Positions 1,337 through 41,473 of a DNA stretch of 41,473 bases are shown here, piece by piece (the stretch's first letter is position 1; every line of letters starts with the position of its first letter). A program made the translations under genes and the position numbers. The notes under the pieces are model-generated. The model was not told the origin of the DNA, did no database searches, and worked only from the letters and a program-made list of their open reading frames with translations. Source of the stretch: a candidate division WOR-1 bacterium RIFCSPLOWO2_02_FULL_46_20 (GTDB taxonomy: Bacteria; Margulisbacteria; WOR-1; O2-12-FULL-45-9); assembly GCA_001771365.1 (NCBI GenBank), contig METP01000040.1:60958-102430 (forward strand), written 5' to 3'.

Positions 1337-1485
1337 ACCGCAATTATAGCGGATATATTTGCAGTGTCAAGTAGTTTGCCTTTCTGTCAATAAAGTCCCG
1401 GCTCCAGCTTTCAAATCCCAACTCCTGAGGCGGATCCGCCTTTGGCGGATAATTCGCCCCGATATGACATCGGAGACAGGAACAA

Positions 1486-1526
1486 GTCCCGATGTTTTAA
1501 TCGGGATCCCGACTTTACGTCGGGAC
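1486..1526. repeat. Nested TCCCGA/TCGGGA palindromes
   Basis: Two adjacent small hairpins (TCCCGA 1487-1492 with TCGGGA 1501-1506; TCCCGAC 1507-1513 with GTCGGGA 1519-1525) also pair as one outer palindrome (GTCCCGA 1486-1492 with TCGGGAC 1520-1526). The block abuts the FGE 3'-end duplicate. It looks like a REP-like or terminator-like intergenic repeat. The rest of 1337-1485 holds a GGCGGATCCGCC palindrome (1429-1440) and nothing coding that I can support. Confidence 0.5.
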
Positions 1527-1719
1527 TCGAGGATTAACCTTTAAAAGTCCTGGCGAGACAAAAGCCAACATCGGGGCCGCGGCTCCCAGGAAGGTAATTG
1601 TAGCGACAATCGGCCTGCAGATAAACTGGAAAGTTGAAGTCCCACGAACCACCGCGAAGAACCGACTCTTTTGTCCATTTCCAAACATTTCCTATAAGAT
1701 CATACAAGCCTTCGGCGCT
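1527..1719 (-). pseudogene. Duplicated 3' end of FGE-fold gene (fragment)
   Basis: All 193 bases are identical to 7283-7475, the 3' end of the FGE-fold gene at 7290-8087. The copy includes the last 61 codons (from S205), the stop codon (1534-1536) and 7 bases beyond. It is in the same minus orientation and has no start, so it is a fragment. Identity ends abruptly at 1719/1720, where an istA tail in plus orientation begins. The perfect identity implies a recent copy event, or an assembly artefact. Confidence 0.9.
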
Positions 1720-1899
1720 CCCTATCTAAAAAACATCATCCTTCAGCCGCGGGCCGCCCGCGGCCTGAAAGAAACTCCGCCTATCGTCATTCCGGCCAAA
1801 CCAGCCTGGACACAGCTCAGCGTCGAAGAGCAAGATTTATCTTTGTACGACGAAATGTTCGAAGAGAAGGGAGAAAGCGATGGCCGGAAAACAAGCTAA
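1720..1899 (+). pseudogene. istA: IS21 transposase IstA, C-terminal remnant
   Basis: About 59 codons remain in one open frame up to TAA at 1897-1899. It overlaps the start of istB at 1880, as istA and istB normally do. The peptide (beginning PYLKNIILQP, with AKPAWTQLSVEEQDLSLYDE) has the low-complexity tail style of IS21 transposases that follows the DDE core. The catalytic core is absent. Assignment rests mainly on its position directly before istB. Confidence 0.6.
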
Positions 1900-2675
1900 T
1901 TCACCGGCCGGTATCTTGTCCTGTCCCAACACGCTGGAAGGGATGCTGGAATATCTGAATTTGCTCCACAGCCTGAAAAACTATCAGGGAACGCTGGAAG
2001 CGGCGGCCAAAGAAAACCTGTCGCACCAGGACTTTTTCCACCGACTGCTTTCTGACGAATCGTCCGCCAAATTCGCCCGGCAAACCCAAAATCGTATCGT
2101 CCAGGCCAGATTTCCTGCCCTCAAAACCATCGACAACTTTGACTTTAACCACCCGGCCAGTATTCCAAAACAAAAGATCCTTCACGCCCTGAACCTCTCT
2201 TTCTTGGATCAGGCAGGTGGTTTGGTCTTGATCGGCCCAACTGGTATTGGTAAGACCCACCTGGCCATCGCCCTGGGCTACAAAGCCGCCGGCGCCGGCG
2301 TGCGAACCCTCTATACGCGAGCTGTAGACATGATTAACCATTATCGCATCCCAAGCGGATCATAGCCTTCATAAAGCCATGAGGGTCTACAGCAGCCCGG
2401 CGCTGCTGGTCATTGATGAAGTCGGCTACTTGCCGTTTGATAAGCAGGGCAGCGACCATTTCTTTAATGTCATTTCCAGTCGCTATGAAAAAGGCTCGGT
2501 AATCTTAACGACTAACCGGCCATTCAAAGACTGGGGGGAAATATTCCATGACAATACGATCGCTGCCGCTATCATCGACAGACTGGCCCATCATTCAGAA
2601 GTGATCAAGATCGAAGGGGGCAGTTATCGAGTCAAAGACAGAAAGTTAAAAGATTCTCTCTCGACAACTGAATAG
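1880..2675 (+). pseudogene. istB: IS21 helper ATPase IstB, frameshifted
   Basis: IstB is the AAA+ helper that activates the IstA transposase. The N-terminal part (1880-2365, 161 codons) has a Walker A GPTGIGKTHLA. The second part (from about 2350 to 2675) has the Walker B-like LLVIDEVGYLPFDKQG and the family signature VILTTNRPFKDWG. The two parts lie in different frames. Reading QADHSLHKAMRVY in the second frame just after NHY in the first shows a single +1/-2 shift near 2340-2350. Joined, the protein would have normal IstB length, about 260 aa. The gene is inactivated unless the shift is a sequencing error. Confidence 0.85.
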
Positions 2676-2738
2676 TCCGCTTACCTCCCGCTTTATTTTT
2701 TTTGCTTTTTTATCCGGGGCAAGGGGATGGTGTAACTA

Positions 2739-2780
2739 ATCGCGGTAAACTGGTCCCGCCATATCGCGGAAAACTGGAAC
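2739..2780 (+). repeat. IS21 right-end direct repeats
   Basis: Two 18-bp copies, 2739-2756 and 2763-2780, share ATCGCGG-AAACTGG-C and differ at two positions (T/A at each), with starts 24 bp apart. IS21-family ends typically carry such tandem transposase-binding repeats. They lie 64 bp after the istB stop. Confidence 0.65.
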
Positions 2781-2790
2781 CTTTCTGACT

Positions 2791-2961
2791 GCGGCCTACA
2801 AGCAATTACTGCTCAACAAAGAGGAAACAGAAAAACAGAGGGTTCAGCTTGCCGAATTGGCCAGTCAGCTTGACGAGATAAATGTTAAAATAGAAGAGCT
2901 TAGGATCAAGATGAAAGCGCGTAGATTTGTTTTCTCTGGCGAGGTGTATTTAAGGCAGTAG
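2791..2961 (+). pseudogene. Coiled-coil gene tail beside IS21 end
   Basis: An open frame runs out of the IS21 end to a TAG at 2959-2961, with no start codon or Shine-Dalgarno. Its ~56 codons encode a heptad-rich, Glu/Lys/Gln-rich helix (AELASQLDEINVKIEELRIK) ending in FVFSGEVYLRQ. It looks like the 3' end of a gene cut by the IS insertion; the 5' part is not in the window. I do not recognise the family. The following 2962-3054 holds nothing I can support. Confidence 0.4.
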
Positions 2962-3054
2962 GAAGTTTGCTTGTCAATGAACGTAAAGCGTCGCAGTCAA
3001 AAGAAATATAGAAAAATTTTAAGATAATTTAATGGCTTAGCGTTTCATGACAAA

Positions 3055-4506
3055 CTATTCAGATTCGCGACCCTTTTTAACGAAAGGGAGCTCTGTATAT
3101 CGATTACAGTAGATAGCAACATCAAAGCCAAGGTTTCGGGTTCTCTGCCAGAGCATTTCGATAAAATCCTTAATTCTAGCGAACAGATTGTATATTTGCC
3201 TTGTTCTTTTTTTGAAATTTCTAGACTCTGCAAGTTTCAAAAAATTTGTTGCAGTATTAGAATGTCGTTTTATTTCTGCCTTAAAACTTTCAAGGCCTAA
3301 ACTATTAGATCGGCAGTCAAAGAAACTTTTCAAAGCTGGAATTTCTGCTGCGGTAAAATAAGTTGTTTTCCCTTGATGGATATATCCCAAGGCATTTTTT
3401 AACCTGTTAAAAAAACTTTCAGCTTCTGCCACTTGTTGGAGTTCGGTTGAGTTAATAAATCCTCTTGTTTCGAGCGCTTGCAACATATCCGTGCTATACG
3501 GGAGTCTTGCTGCGCAAAGCCCTGCTTCAGTCCTTAAAATCGCTTGGGCAATTTTGATTTTTCTGGTTTCAAGCGAAGGCGACAGCAGCCCCCTTGAGTC
3601 GATATCGCGACGGTCAATGAGGTACAGGCTCTTGAGCCAGATATTTGGAAAATAATAAGGGGCCAAGAGCTTTTCTTCGTTTTGATAGTAAGAACTGACC
3701 TGATCAAAAAATGATTTTACAGTTGTTTGATCGCTTACTGTTTCAATGGGCAGTGCATCGGCGGCAAATTTAGCGATCCTGATAAAGTTTTGCCGATTGT
3801 TGATTTGCACGGTTTTAGCTCTTCCCTTGCTTAGGGTGCTGATTAAGTTATCACTTTTAATGCCGCATTCAGCAAGGGTCTTTTCGATCTCCCCAGCCAA
3901 ATAATTAAAGTAAGCGCGGTTTTTACCCTGAAAAACAACAATAAAATCAAGGTCAGAGAGTAACGTTGATTTTCCTGCGCTGCCTGCCACCAGAAAGACC
4001 GCAAGTTGAGTCTCAGCTTGTCCAAACTTTTTCTTAGCTTTGTTCTGTGCGATTTTGACAATTCTTGGCATAACTTCAAGATGCAGAGCTCTTAAGGCGG
4101 GGGCGATGGCTTGCGCCTCGAATTGGTTCTCTATGGGCTTACAGCGCTCCGCTTCTAATATTTGTTCCATTTTCTGGCGGTACAAGCGCCTAATGTCTCC
4201 GATCTCAGCGGGAATATGTTTTGGGAGTTCAATTTTTATTTCAAGGAAATCTTCTTTTTCTACAAGGATAACATTTTCATCTGTACTCCGGCCGCTATTC
4301 AAAATTTCTCTTATTTGGGCCGGGGTGATAAATTGTGTGGCCCCGCTAAAACTTAGCTGGTGTATACCGTTGGGGAGGGGAAACTTGCCGCACAATCTGA
4401 AAGATAAATCCGGCACATGAGGATAGTGACTAAGCCTTTCGTGCAACGATCTTGCATAAAGACTGGCCTGTAATCTCAAGGGAGTTTTGCGCAGCGCTTC
4501 AAGCAT
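3055..4506 (-). CDS. GlnD/DUF294-like nucleotidyltransferase
   Basis: This 483-aa protein has a nucleotidyltransferase-fold core at residues 170-192: AVFLVAGSAGKSTLLSDLDF. The GS...SDLDF pattern with Asp185 and Asp187 matches the metal-binding motif of GlnD and DUF294 uridylyl/adenylyl transferases. The C-terminal half is helical and lacks an obvious HD or ACT domain, so it is not a full GlnD. The 170-residue N-terminal region is of unknown type. The substrate is unknown. It follows the membrane-protein gene at 4522-6318 with a 15-base gap, in which an extended -10 box sits 9 bases before the ATG; it may therefore be transcribed both from upstream and from its own leaderless promoter. Confidence 0.6.
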   Translation of the reverse strand: MLEALRKTPLRLQASLYARSLHERLSHYPHVPDLSFRLCGKFPLPNGIHQLSFSGATQFITPAQIREILNSGRSTDENVILVEKEDFLEIKIELPKHIPAEIGDIRRLYRQKMEQILEAERCKPIENQFEAQAIAPALRALHLEVMPRIVKIAQNKAKKKFGQAETQLAVFLVAGSAGKSTLLSDLDFIVVFQGKNRAYFNYLAGEIEKTLAECGIKSDNLISTLSKGRAKTVQINNRQNFIRIAKFAADALPIETVSDQTTVKSFFDQVSSYYQNEEKLLAPYYFPNIWLKSLYLIDRRDIDSRGLLSPSLETRKIKIAQAILRTEAGLCAARLPYSTDMLQALETRGFINSTELQQVAEAESFFNRLKNALGYIHQGKTTYFTAAEIPALKSFFDCRSNSLGLESFKAEIKRHSNTATNFLKLAESRNFKKRTRQIYNLFARIKDFIEMLWQRTRNLGFDVAIYCNRYTELPFVKKGRESE

Positions 4507-4515
4507 AAAGTAAAC

Positions 4516-4524
4516 CTTATATCA
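4516..4524 (-). promoter_or_regulatory. Extended -10 box, leaderless
   Basis: On the minus strand TGATATAAG (TG at 4523-4524, hexamer 4516-4521) ends 9 bases before the ATG at 4506. There is no Shine-Dalgarno in between, as at several other genes here. Confidence 0.45.
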
Positions 4525-6318
4525 AGATAATCTTATGGCCAATTTGCTGTGGAGTTCAGAGTTTGTTTTCTCTAAAATTACCATTACTTGGCTAACGAAT
4601 CCGGGATCTCTTTTTTGCAGAAAGCCAAAAGCCCGAGCAACATCAGCATCAGAATATTCTTGATGGCTAATTTCCGAAGTGATCACTACGGTATTATAAC
4701 TTGTCACATACCCGCCACTGGGTTGCAGGGAGTTAATATAGTCAGATGTCCAATCAGTCACTGCCTCTGTTGTTGTGACTTCTTCTTGATCTATAATTTT
4801 TTTTGATTTGGGAATGAGTTGCGGATCATTCAATAATATCGCTAGTTTTTGCGGCGAAACTTTTAAATTGGTAGCAACGCGTTCCAAAATCTGACTATCT
4901 TTAGAATCTAGTTGGTCAAGTTCCGAAGTTGTTAGTTCTCCCAGTCGATCAAAAACATTTTTTCTTATTTGAGGATTGTTGGCACCACAGGCAAGATCAA
5001 GCATGCTCTGACGGTCAGCCACAATAGTTGGATTAAAAGCCAATTTTGTTAGGGCTTTGGTACAAGCAAGGATCGACGTTCCCTTCCGAGCAAGATCAAG
5101 CCAGATAGGTTTCGAGCATTTTTGATGATTAATAACCTTCAATTGCAATTGCTCTAACTCTTTGCTATAAGACTGTCCCTGCAGCAGCATTTGAGACAAA
5201 TCGTTAGCTGTAAAATCTGCGGCAAATCTGTCAAAATGCTTTAAGATTACAGAAAGAGGGACAGGCCTTTGCCCAGTAAAATAAGGCAGGAAGAAAGAAT
5301 TAGGAATTGAATCCCAACTAAAAAGGGCATTGAAAATCTCTGGCTGGTTGAGATACTTTAGGGTCTCGATCTCAGATAATGTTAATTGTTCCTTAAGTCT
5401 TTGTATCGCTTTTGCTCTAATTGAGCTTTCCGAATGATTTGCTAATTCAATAAGTTTATTTTTAGGAGCCTTCGGATGTTCAACTAACAAAGCATCTTTG
5501 TCTGAGCCGGTGAGATGTTTTTCTGCCAGTTCATAAGGCAAGACATGAGCCACGGTAGCTCTTGACCCTTTTGCTCTGGCCAGCACGCTTTGGATTCTGG
5601 CCGAGCCTTTTTGGTCCAGCTCTATTCCATTACACCCATCAAAAACAGCCTGATAATCTCTGCCAAAGCTGGCCATGCGAGAGAGCATGGTTGATGCCCA
5701 AATTACACCACGGATAGCAGGAATTAATAGGAAGCCTGCGACACTGCCTATGGCAGTAAATGTAGCGCATTCCCAAAAAGGACCATGGTTATCATAAATA
5801 GCTAAGGCAATAAGTCCTAATAAACCGCCACCGGAACTGGCAAGGCATCCCAGTCCATATATCTTTTCTCCAAAATTTACAGGCACAATTTCATCATGTA
5901 AACTGTGCCAGGAAACTGGCATTTTTAAGTCTTCGCCAGAAGGCCCCTTAACCCTTATGCCGTATTCTGAAAGGCTACTTTGCAAAATTTCAAGAGGGGT
6001 CTTGAGCAGGACAGAAAAAACATTTTTAATTTGAGGGGCGGTCATGCCGCCAGGCAAAATAATTTTCTCAATAACAGGGTCTAGTTTTTCAACTAAGGCT
6101 TTTGCATAAGGAATGTCCGCATATCTCTTACTTGGGGCATGCCAGTATTGTACCCCGTCCAGTAGCCCCCTGTTCTCTATTTTGATTTCCTTTTGACTCA
6201 GGCCATAATGAGATAAATTGGCTGCAATCCTTCCAAGTCTAATGAATTTGTTAACCTGTCTCTGAGACCACGGATATCTTCCTGATAAGGTCACGGAGCC
6301 TAATTCTGCATTTGCCAT
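4522..6318 (-). CDS. Unknown membrane protein with helical repeats
   Basis: A 598-aa protein that I do not recognise. The start is ATG at 6318, because AGGAGG lies 8 bases upstream; an upstream in-frame start at 6384 has no such site. The N-terminal ~150 residues are soluble. Two hydrophobic segments (about residues 153-175, Gly-rich, and 184-208) could form a hairpin in the membrane. The C-terminal ~370 residues are helical, with stretches such as HPKAPKNKLIELANHSESSIRAKA-type repeats that resemble leucine-rich-repeat-variant/HEAT units, a protein-binding fold. It probably forms a two-gene unit with the nucleotidyltransferase downstream. It sits in the accessory region between two IS scars, which suggests horizontal origin. 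Confidence 0.5.
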   Translation of the reverse strand: MANAELGSVTLSGRYPWSQRQVNKFIRLGRIAANLSHYGLSQKEIKIENRGLLDGVQYWHAPSKRYADIPYAKALVEKLDPVIEKIILPGGMTAPQIKNVFSVLLKTPLEILQSSLSEYGIRVKGPSGEDLKMPVSWHSLHDEIVPVNFGEKIYGLGCLASSGGGLLGLIALAIYDNHGPFWECATFTAIGSVAGFLLIPAIRGVIWASTMLSRMASFGRDYQAVFDGCNGIELDQKGSARIQSVLARAKGSRATVAHVLPYELAEKHLTGSDKDALLVEHPKAPKNKLIELANHSESSIRAKAIQRLKEQLTLSEIETLKYLNQPEIFNALFSWDSIPNSFFLPYFTGQRPVPLSVILKHFDRFAADFTANDLSQMLLQGQSYSKELEQLQLKVINHQKCSKPIWLDLARKGTSILACTKALTKLAFNPTIVADRQSMLDLACGANNPQIRKNVFDRLGELTTSELDQLDSKDSQILERVATNLKVSPQKLAILLNDPQLIPKSKKIIDQEEVTTTEAVTDWTSDYINSLQPSGGYVTSYNTVVITSEISHQEYSDADVARAFGFLQKRDPGFVSQVMVILEKTNSELHSKLAIRLS

Positions 6319-6425
6319 TTTAAATTCCTCCTGTAGTCTGTAGTTCTCTACACATATATCCCTCCCTTTCCTTAAAAATTTCACATTATCTTATAATTGA
6401 GCGATAGATTTTTGGAGGTATACTA

Positions 6426-6460
6426 TGGGGGTGACCTTACCCCCAAAAACTGGACCACTT
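6426..6460 (+). mobile_element. IS-end-like scar with C-rich hairpin
   Basis: A 7-bp stem, TGGGGGT (6426-6432) with ACCCCCA (6439-6445), is followed by AAAACTGGACCACTT. The AAAACTGGA core matches that of the IS21 right end at 2770-2778. There is no transposase beside it. It may be the residue of a second insertion element; the family cannot be fixed from this length. Confidence 0.35.
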
Positions 6461-6536
6461 GCAATTAGAATCTTTTTATGAAATCATAGGCCAAGGTTAT
6501 TACTTTAGGGTAAAAGCTAAAAAGGATAAAGTGTAA
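6435..6536 (+). pseudogene. 3' tail of an unidentified gene
   Basis: An open frame of 33 codons runs from just after a stop codon at 6432-6434 through the IS-like scar to TAA at 6534-6536. The peptide KLDHLQLESFYEIIGQGYYF and its basic end VKAKKDKV look protein-like, but no start codon or ribosome site is present. It converges on the FGE-fold gene that ends at 6538. It may be a truncated gene remnant; I do not recognise the family. Confidence 0.3.
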
Positions 6537-6537
6537 T

Positions 6538-7218
6538 TTATTTGTCCTCGACAAGACGAACCGCGTAAGCGCCGCAACGACCCTCCGGGAGCCTGAAGTC
6601 GCGGAGGCCGCCGTCCAGGAGACGAAGAACATAAGTTGCACCAGAAAATTTAGTTTCCGTCCACGTCCAATGATTTCCAGATAAGTTATCTTTAGCCACC
6701 ATCCACTCATCTTCTGTCTGAACCCTGAATTTTCTTCCGGTTAAATTGCTCAGCCGTTTAGCAACTTCTCTAGCATTCAATAAGCTTACATAAGTTAAAG
6801 CGTTGCTTTCTTGCGCCGGGTCAGCAAGAATAGCTCTAAGTTCATCGTCATTATGGCCGGTGATTTCGTATCCCTCCATTACACGCTTAAATAAACCGAC
6901 CGTGAGCTCGCCTTTCATTATTTTTACCTTATCATTAATATCGATCATTTCCGGAATATCTATTTTAGAAGTTTGAGAAACAGCGGCTGCACTGACTTCT
7001 GCAACAGAATCAATTCCAACTTCGCTGATTTCTAAGGCTACTGGCTGGCGTTGGCTTATTATCTCAGCCGAAGCCGCCGGTGAATCTCCGGCGCGGAGGC
7101 TTGACGCTGCAAGGCCTGACAACCTTTGCCTCACAATCCTCAATTGAGCGTCAGCCCCTAATTTCCCATCTGATGCGCGGAATCGCCAACCTTCTATATT
7201 TACTCTCAATCCAGCCAT
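6538..7218 (-). CDS. FGE/C-type-lectin-fold protein, putative DGR target
   Basis: A 226-aa protein whose C-terminal half has traces of the formylglycine-generating-enzyme/SUMF1 (C-type-lectin) fold: TYVSLLNAREVAKRLSN, EDEWMVAKDN, then NHWTWTET at about 182-189 and a terminal AVRLVEDK. The N-terminal ~90 residues are unlike FGE. The last ~26 codons before VEDK (6550-6627) contain only 5 adenines in 78 coding-strand bases. Many are NNC or NNT codons (CTC, GAC, GGC, TTC, TGC, GCT) where lectin-fold DGR targets have AAC/AAT in the template. This is the pattern expected after adenine-directed mutagenesis. Start: ATG 7218, with AGGAGGA upstream. It lies downstream of, and shares a 25-base leader with, the FGE gene at 7290-8087. 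No signal peptide. Confidence 0.65.
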   Translation of the reverse strand: MAGLRVNIEGWRFRASDGKLGADAQLRIVRQRLSGLAASSLRAGDSPAASAEIISQRQPVALEISEVGIDSVAEVSAAAVSQTSKIDIPEMIDINDKVKIMKGELTVGLFKRVMEGYEITGHNDDELRAILADPAQESNALTYVSLLNAREVAKRLSNLTGRKFRVQTEDEWMVAKDNLSGNHWTWTETKFSGATYVLRLLDGGLRDFRLPEGRCGAYAVRLVEDK

Positions 7219-7224
7219 TTTATT

Positions 7225-7249
7225 TTCCTCCTAATTTTTTGACCTTTAC
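7225..7249 (-). promoter_or_regulatory. Leader copy 2 with Shine-Dalgarno
   Basis: These 25 bases are identical to 8094-8118, in front of the other FGE-fold gene. They include AGGAGGA, placed for the ATG at 7218. The coding sequences that follow are unrelated at their 5' ends, so the leader itself has been kept or copied. Confidence 0.7.
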
Positions 7250-7282
7250 TTGGGTGCTTAACCCGCTTTGCGCCGAGCCATT

Positions 7283-7475
7283 TCGAGGATTAACCTTTAA
7301 AAGTCCTGGCGAGACAAAAGCCAACATCGGGGCCGCGGCTCCCAGGAAGGTAATTGTAGCGACAATCGGCCTGCAGATAAACTGGAAAGTTGAAGTCCCA
7401 CGAACCACCGCGAAGAACCGACTCTTTTGTCCATTTCCAAACATTTCCTATAAGATCATACAAGCCTTCGGCGCT
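7283..7475 (-). repeat. 193-bp direct repeat, copy B
   Basis: Identical over its full length to 1527-1719. It covers the last 61 codons, stop codon and 7 following bases of the FGE-fold gene at 7290-8087. This is probably the parent copy, because here it is part of a complete gene. Confidence 0.9.
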
Positions 7476-39786: not shown

Positions 39787-39860
39787 TTCGCGAATTCGGG
39801 CCGAAGTTGTTTCATAAGACCGAGATCATTAATACTAACGGCCTCGAAATCATCGTTGCG
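39783..39860 (-). pseudogene. Remnant of a UvrD-like helicase C-terminus
   Basis: In the minus strand the frame from 39860 reads RNDDFEAVSINDLGLMKQLR and ends PEFAN-stop (TAG at 39783-39785). This matches the tail of the helicase at the right edge (SRDDDFEAISINDLDFMK). The two differ mostly at synonymous and conservative positions, so the remnant is old. The first bases overlap the end of the DUF4143 ATPase gene in another frame. No upstream part of the helicase survives here. Confidence 0.65.
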
Positions 39861-41001
39861 GGTGCCTGTCCAGGATTTTAGGTAATTCCCTAAAAACTTC
39901 GGCCAGAGGGATTATATCAACTTCCCCGTCCCGCATCCGTCTCTCCCCCCCATAAATAAAATAAGCGCTGGCAGAAGGATAGTCCATCAGAAAAGCTTTT
40001 AACCCTTTGAGCATGGAACTATTAACTTTTCCTGTTCTTTTAATTTCAAAAGCCTTAATTCCTTTCTCTCCGTATAGGACAAAATCAACTTCAAGGTTAC
40101 TGGCGGTTCTCCAATAAAATATTTTATGGCCTAGTTTATAATAATCATTAATCGCGTTTAGCTCCTGGAATAAAAGGGTTTCCAGCGCAACTCCGTCTGT
40201 TTCTTCCGGCCTGTCAAGCGGCCCCATTGGCCTTATCGTACGGTATAGGCCAACATCAAACAAATAAAATTTGGGATGAGCAGCCATTCGCCTCTTAGCT
40301 TTTTTGGCAAAGACCGGTATCTTATAGGCGATAAGTAAATCTTCAAGGATAGAAAAATAATTTTCCACAACCTTACGCTCAACAGCACATTCTCGTGCAA
40401 TTGCGGCAATATTTAAAACCGAACCCTGTGAAAAACTGGCTGCCTCTAAAAATCTGGAAAAAGCCCCGAGATTTCTGGTTAACCCTTCCTGCCGAATTTC
40501 TTCTTCAAGATAGGTTTTAACATAACTTTCTAAGTAAGCTTTTGGATCTTTCTCAATATAAACACTTGGCAGCTGCCCAAATTTTAGAGACCGGCTCAGG
40601 TCAAAGTCATTGCCAAGCTCTAATGCCGTCAACTGGTGCAAAGCAAAAGTTAACGCACGGCCGGCTAAAAGATTTTGGCCTTTTCTCCTTAATTTCCTGG
40701 CACTCGAGCCGGTTAGAACAAATCTATGCTTGTACTTTTCTATCAGCCGATGAACTTCATTTAAAAGCTCCGGAATCTTTTGCACTTCGTCAATAATAAT
40801 CCAATCACTAAGACCCTTTGGAATAAACTTTTCAAGGCGTTGGGGATCAGCCAGAAGGTCGTTAAACAATTCCGCTTCCAGCAAATCTAAATACACTGCC
40901 CCGGGAAAAGTGGCTTTTACCCAGGTGGTCTTTCCTGTACCGCGAGGCCCAAAGAGAAAGAAGCTTTTATCCTCAGGCGGCTTAATTAATCTGGAATACA
41001 T
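39850..41001 (-). CDS. AAA ATPase with DUF4143 domain (second copy)
   Basis: A 383-aa P-loop ATPase of the same family as the one at 83-1336, but clearly diverged. Walker A GPRGTGKT is at 18-25, Walker B WIIIDEVQKIP at 67-77 with Asp71 and Glu72, and sensor LTGSSARKL near 96-104. The C-terminal DUF4143 part has NIAAIARECAVERKVVENYF and the nuclease-like LEVDFVLYGEKGIKAFEIKR. Start ATG 41001 follows TAAAAT by six bases. It lies between a helicase gene and a remnant of a second helicase tail, so it seems to have been inserted there. Confidence 0.87.
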   Translation of the reverse strand: MYSRLIKPPEDKSFFLFGPRGTGKTTWVKATFPGAVYLDLLEAELFNDLLADPQRLEKFIPKGLSDWIIIDEVQKIPELLNEVHRLIEKYKHRFVLTGSSARKLRRKGQNLLAGRALTFALHQLTALELGNDFDLSRSLKFGQLPSVYIEKDPKAYLESYVKTYLEEEIRQEGLTRNLGAFSRFLEAASFSQGSVLNIAAIARECAVERKVVENYFSILEDLLIAYKIPVFAKKAKRRMAAHPKFYLFDVGLYRTIRPMGPLDRPEETDGVALETLLFQELNAINDYYKLGHKIFYWRTASNLEVDFVLYGEKGIKAFEIKRTGKVNSSMLKGLKAFLMDYPSASAYFIYGGERRMRDGEVDIIPLAEVFRELPKILDRHPQR

Positions 41002-41046: not shown

Positions 41047-41473
41047 TTATTTCATAAAGTCCAAGTCATTAATGCTGATGGCCTCGAAATCATCATCGCG
41101 GGAGTTAATTTTCGTTTCATGAAAACCAGTTAAATCTGTTTCGCGTTCTGCCTGTTCTTCTTCAACCTCCCATTTGTCAAAAAGCTCCTCTGGAACCTCT
41201 TCCAGATAACGCGAGGTTTTCATCAAAACCTGGCCTTCATAGCCTGAACATATTAAAGGATAAGAAAGATAAAGCTCATCTTTGGCCCGAGTAACTGCCA
41301 CATAAAACAAGCGACGCTCTTCTTCCATTTCTTCTTCTTTACCAAAAGATAAATAAGAGGGGAAACGACCATCCGCCAGCCAAACAACAAAAACAACTTT
41401 CCACTCCAAACCTTTAGCCTGATGAACAGTAGTTAAAATACAAGCTTCTGATTCTGTCTCCTCCCCTCCAACA
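41047..41473 (-). CDS. UvrD/PcrA-like helicase, C-terminal part (partial)
   Basis: The gene runs off the right edge; about 141 residues are visible. Motif V (TTVHQAKGLEWKVVFV) and motif VI (EEERRLFYVAVTRAKDELYL) are those of superfamily 1A DNA helicases. An acidic linker follows, then the unusual conserved tail RDDDFEAISINDLDFMK. ATP hydrolysis motifs I-III lie outside the window. The role, in repair or recombination, cannot be narrowed from this part. Confidence 0.88.
   Translation of the reverse strand, partial: VGGEETESEACILTTVHQAKGLEWKVVFVVWLADGRFPSYLSFGKEEEMEEERRLFYVAVTRAKDELYLSYPLICSGYEGQVLMKTSRYLEEVPEELFDKWEVEEEQAERETDLTGFHETKINSRDDDFEAISINDLDFMK

Follow-up and report, generated by a model that had tools for sequence, protein, structure and literature searches.

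DGRs are natural targeted-mutation machines composed of Avd, an RT, a pair of template repeat (TR) and variable region (VR), and a variable protein of C-type-lectin/FGE fold. Rearrangements of the MMBIR type are known for templated insertions at microhomology junctions. Decayed DGRs have been described in Treponema denticola isolates, where targets remain with no RT or TR (PMC4891356). The locus described here is of this known kind, its target genes likewise outliving the machinery; what is new, compared with the T. denticola cases, is that the end of the cassette and a probable rearrangement scar have stayed legible.

The window (the whole stretch analyzed, 41,473 nucleotides; G000:C40:60958-102430) comes from a MAG of 1.37 Mb in 70 contigs, 86% complete. 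It holds one decayed DGR cassette of a Margulisiibacteriota (Saganbacteria-type) genome (Table 1), with order FGE target, second target, avd remnant, accessory genes, IS21 remnant, VR copy in the TR slot, and truncated TR-downstream element. The targets, A-directed VR, avd remnant and TR-downstream element keep the order of the relatives' intact cassettes; unlike those, the window cassette has neither RT nor TR, and its TR slot is occupied by a copy of the 3′ end of a target gene.

Table 1. Features of the decayed cassette, in window coordinates.
Feature	Position	Strand	Remarks
TR-downstream element of DGR, truncated	1397..1518	(-)	Hairpin nearest TR missing
Left copy of 193-bp repeat	1527..1719	(-)	Last 186 bp of FGE gene including stop codon, plus 7 bp; VR part ~1552-1662
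IS21 remnant	1720..2675	(+)	istA tail, without the 5′ part of istA, and istB in two frames; probable right end near 2800
DUF294-type nucleotidyltransferase, accessory	3055-4506	(-)	Where avd/RT would be
620-aa accessory protein	4522-6384	(-)	No Pfam match; where avd/RT would be
avd remnant, 36 bp	6475..6510	(-)	92% to avd start on C29; 86% to C60 and L106
Second DGR target gene	6538..7218	(-)	N-terminal part related to targets on C60, C45 and C29
Right (parent) copy of 193-bp repeat	7283..7475	(-)	3′ end of intact FGE gene; VR ~7308-7418
FGE gene, read as FGE/C-type-lectin-type DGR variable protein, 265 aa	7290..8087	(-)	PF03781 E 1.5e-21; C-terminus hypervariable among homologues

The two copies (1527-1719 and 7283-7475) are 100% identical over 193 bp, in the same orientation with a start-to-start spacing of 5756. 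This was the sole such direct repeat when the whole 41-kb window was compared, and an exact match of this length is not due to chance in 41 kb. The right copy takes in 7 bases past the FGE stop codon (7283-7289) and the whole VR. The repeat comparison agrees with the original prediction of an exact FGE 3′-end copy ~5.8 kb away, stop codon and 7 bases included, with the VR inside it without a difference. The claim that the left copy ends at 1719 where istA begins was likewise upheld, an IstA-like frame and istB pieces lying there; the copy's other flank, 1397-1518, had been missed, and a suggested role as silent cassette was not supported (see below). The search for further partial FGE 3′ ends in the genome, also proposed there, returned only these two places: a DNA search of the assembled genome found no third copy of the repeat, a Pfam FGE profile search of it found no further FGE copy, and an 18-mer from the VR start, allowing up to 3 mismatches, matched the genome at these two places only. 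In principle, the two direct repeats could recombine and so delete the 5.8 kb that separates them. Elsewhere in the window, a 56-bp direct repeat (79% identical; 39807-39862 and 41047-41102) lies at the 3′ ends of two neighboring minus-strand genes, and the gene at 39850-41001 is a distant relative (30%) of the AAA/DUF4143 gene at 83-1336.

The FGE gene is read as encoding an FGE-fold DGR variable protein because of its PF03781 match, its hypervariable end, and the FGE-type TRs of two related genomes (L102, L104), which are rich in AAC codons and follow an RT. Between homologues the last ~40 codons are hypervariable and the remainder is conserved; the closest named homologues are from Candidatus Margulisiibacteriota / Saganbacteria MAGs. 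No FGE-type TR was found in five genomes searched with GGNGGNTCNTGGAAYAAYAAY, nor in the window's own genome with the 18-mer. Compared therefore with TRs of other genera, the FGE VR is changed at 21/31 adenine sites and 26/80 others. The second target has a VR (~6548-6630) of the C60/C45 TR type, changed relative to TR1 at 21 of 27 TR adenines and 8 of 56 other sites. Variable protein genes with a 3′-terminal VR are thus present, the second target by its A-directed changes and FGE by its C-terminal hypervariability, while Avd is represented by the 36-bp remnant only.

Two further contigs of the genome, C60 and C45, each carry a target gene, Avd, RT remnants, a TR and a TR-downstream element. 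Between the C60 VR and the C45 TR there are 17 differences, all of them at adenines (0/55 other sites), which suggests recent mutagenic homing in trans. As assembled, every DGR cassette found in the genome has its RT broken or missing. C60 (L011 10127-10972) has an in-frame Avd/RT fusion, in which Avd is fused at its C-terminus and the RT retains YMDD but not its N-terminal part; C45 (L012 3427-4358) has a whole Avd and an RT without its middle; and C29 (L040 8261-8500) has a target and, in addition, an avd start that runs into unrelated sequence, followed by a TR-downstream fragment. A deletion in the C60 Avd/RT falls on a short match (TTTGAGATG), as is proposed below for the window, so that events of this sort happen repeatedly in the genome. 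The ends of contigs C15 and C45 (L041 1-330; L012 5′ end) carry near-identical DGR upstream regions with a short indel, suggesting strain variation or broken assembly at that locus. A single RVT_1 match was obtained in the genome, to the truncated RT on C60. The window cassette has none, nor does the assembly contain any intact RT; one may be missing from it. The original prediction had allowed that diversification is not active, and indeed no sign of active machinery was seen beside the copy, RT and TR being gone from the window cassette. At this locus FGE is expected to be frozen as one variant, unless an RT and TR that the assembly lacks act on it in trans.

The copy's outer flank was identified by comparison with these cassettes. 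In relatives, the TR-downstream element lies directly downstream of the DGR TR. Window positions 1397-1518 match the C45 element at 96% over 49 bp and the C60 element at 95% over 40 bp and 96% over 23 bp, in order, and the motif TTCCTGTCTCCGA is present at three sites of the genome, in the window and in the C45 and C60 elements, the latter two beside known TRs. This identification places the 193-bp copy where the TR would be, in a cassette now devoid of avd, RT and TR. The conserved element directly follows the TR in Margulisiibacteriota DGRs (L011 11064-11225, L012 3060-3330, and after the TR in L102-L107). Its TR-following hairpin and longer stem are backed by covariation, with 97.7% of cells paired and 8 pairs changed on both sides; 1/500 shuffles scored as high, and slid versions gave at most 4 pairs. 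The window cassette is without this TR-adjacent hairpin. The element is possibly part of the DGR RNA recognized by the RT complex; four loci searched against Rfam matched no family. Short palindromic units of the GGCGGATCCGCC and TCGGGATCCCGA types (window 1428-1441 and 1487-1526) recur on contigs C2 and C49, and one borders the 193-bp copy. We considered whether 1381-1526 is a mere dispersed palindrome and rejected this: the palindromic parts recur on C2 and C49, but the non-palindromic motif is found only at TR-downstream sites and in the window.

On the inner side of the copy, an IstA-like frame spans 1714-1902 and istB pieces lie at 1880-2365 and 2379-2675, both matching PF01695. The istA tail, which alone has no Pfam or NCBIfam match, is 41% identical to the intact IstA of a sister genome (G006:C48; L101 1039-3980), where an intact IS21 (istA, istB) sits inside a DGR RT gene in the same relative orientation as in the window. 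Both IS21 are opposite in orientation to the DGR; unlike the sister element, with IstA and IstB intact, the window istA has been cut short and runs into the FGE copy. The IstA frame runs on into the copy, reading QAFGA/PYLKNII against KAFGVTYLKNII in the intact G006 protein, with A, F and G matching. The alignment suggests that the ancestral istA may have shared ~12 bp (GCCTTCGGCGCT) with FGE at the breakpoint. Searches for a closer IS21 from which to read the ancestral istA DNA gave only distant istB matches within the sampled phylum (G006, G004) and none in plasmids; phage records gave no match. At the other junction, FGE GGTTAATCCTCGA abuts GTCCCGACG, where a palindromic unit shared with C45 has its left edge, and homology is weak (TTAA-TCC).

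We favor, at about an even chance, a microhomology-mediated rearrangement with a templated 193-bp insertion as its scar. By comparison with relatives, the ancestral minus-strand order would have been target(s), avd, RT, TR and TR-downstream RNA element. An IS21 probably entered the RT at some time, in the manner of the sister genome, and would since have been reduced to an istA tail and broken istB, while avd shrank to 36 bp and RT and TR were lost. A later repair or replication event between istA and the TR-downstream element may then have jumped, by way of microhomology, to the 3′ end of FGE as template, which lies 5.7 kb off and is oriented alike; after copying 193 bp it would have rejoined where the palindromic unit has its edge. 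This history is favored because of the exact repeat at two places, the TR-downstream flank, the avd remnant and the A-directed second target, and because the IstA frame enters the copy and an IS21 lies in the DGR RT of G006; the short-match deletion in C60 also speaks for it. The copy starts ~57 bp upstream of the VR, beyond normal TR/VR homology, and ends 7 bp past the stop codon; the upstream start indicates that it was copied from the FGE gene and is not a TR product. Like MMBIR-type templated insertions, it consists of a short, exactly copied piece of neighboring sequence at the site of a deletion; compared with those, it is inferred from one end state only. A single template-switching event would account for it, involving the putative istA-side microhomology and probably recent, given the zero differences; weak homology at the TR-downstream junction and the one end state seen count against this account. 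The copy is expected to have no function.

A different route to the same structure, which we hold possible but unlikely, is that a second, longer FGE target once lay between IS21 and the TR-downstream element, and that a deletion at a stretch coding for AFGA, shared with istA, took away the 5′ portions of both that target and istA, leaving 193 bp. Several FGE paralogues are present in relatives, the istA/FGE junction does resemble a simple microhomology deletion, and duplication followed by deletion fits nearly as well as template switching; however, an extra duplication would be needed that also displaced the TR and hairpin, and nothing of a second FGE gene's 5′ part was found in the assembled genome.

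We regard it as somewhat less probable still that the left copy arose in assembly, through the wrong joining of a repeat in a short-read MAG of mixed strains. The assembly is in 70 contigs, the C15/C45 end variants suggest strain variation at DGR loci, and none of the assembled cassettes has an unbroken RT gene. A random misjoin, however, need not keep the IstA frame and match biological microhomology at the istA junction, as this one does, nor give the expected cassette end as the outer flank.

The proposal that the copy is functional, as a silent donor cassette or as a TR that, once overwritten by the VR, goes on restoring FGE to the sequence it has now, is very improbable, although the copy does lie in the TR slot and is equal to the VR. 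The window cassette lacks an RT and the assembly an intact one, the covarying TR-adjacent hairpin is missing, and the copy extends upstream of normal TR/VR homology. Mutagenic recopying should have altered some of the 13 VR adenines, which are unchanged between the two copies; the chance of none changing is 0.05 to 0.0001 at per-site rates of 0.2 to 0.5. Silent cassettes serving as gene-conversion donors differ from the expressed gene, whereas here a single copy identical to the gene provides no donor repertoire. We accordingly give little credence to a DGR template repeat overwritten by its own VR, fixing the present receptor variant; if true, such overwriting would be a way of ending targeted hypermutation, of which we know of no description.

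Least probable of all is that 1720-7475 is an integrated mobile element with the FGE 3′ end duplicated as attachment site: direct repeats with an intact gene at one end resemble integration at gene 3′ ends, but no integrase is among the genes of the segment, and segment and flanks together make up one DGR cassette in the right order.

With a rearrangement that templated a short insertion as the preferred explanation, the 193-bp repeat itself is probably ordinary. Its value lies in where it led: the conserved TR-downstream RNA element can reveal DGR remnants that have no RT, and an odd repeat becomes a readable history of the decay of a hypermutation system in an uncultured lineage, in which IS21 probably inserted, RT and TR disappeared, and a piece of a target gene remained as the likely scar.
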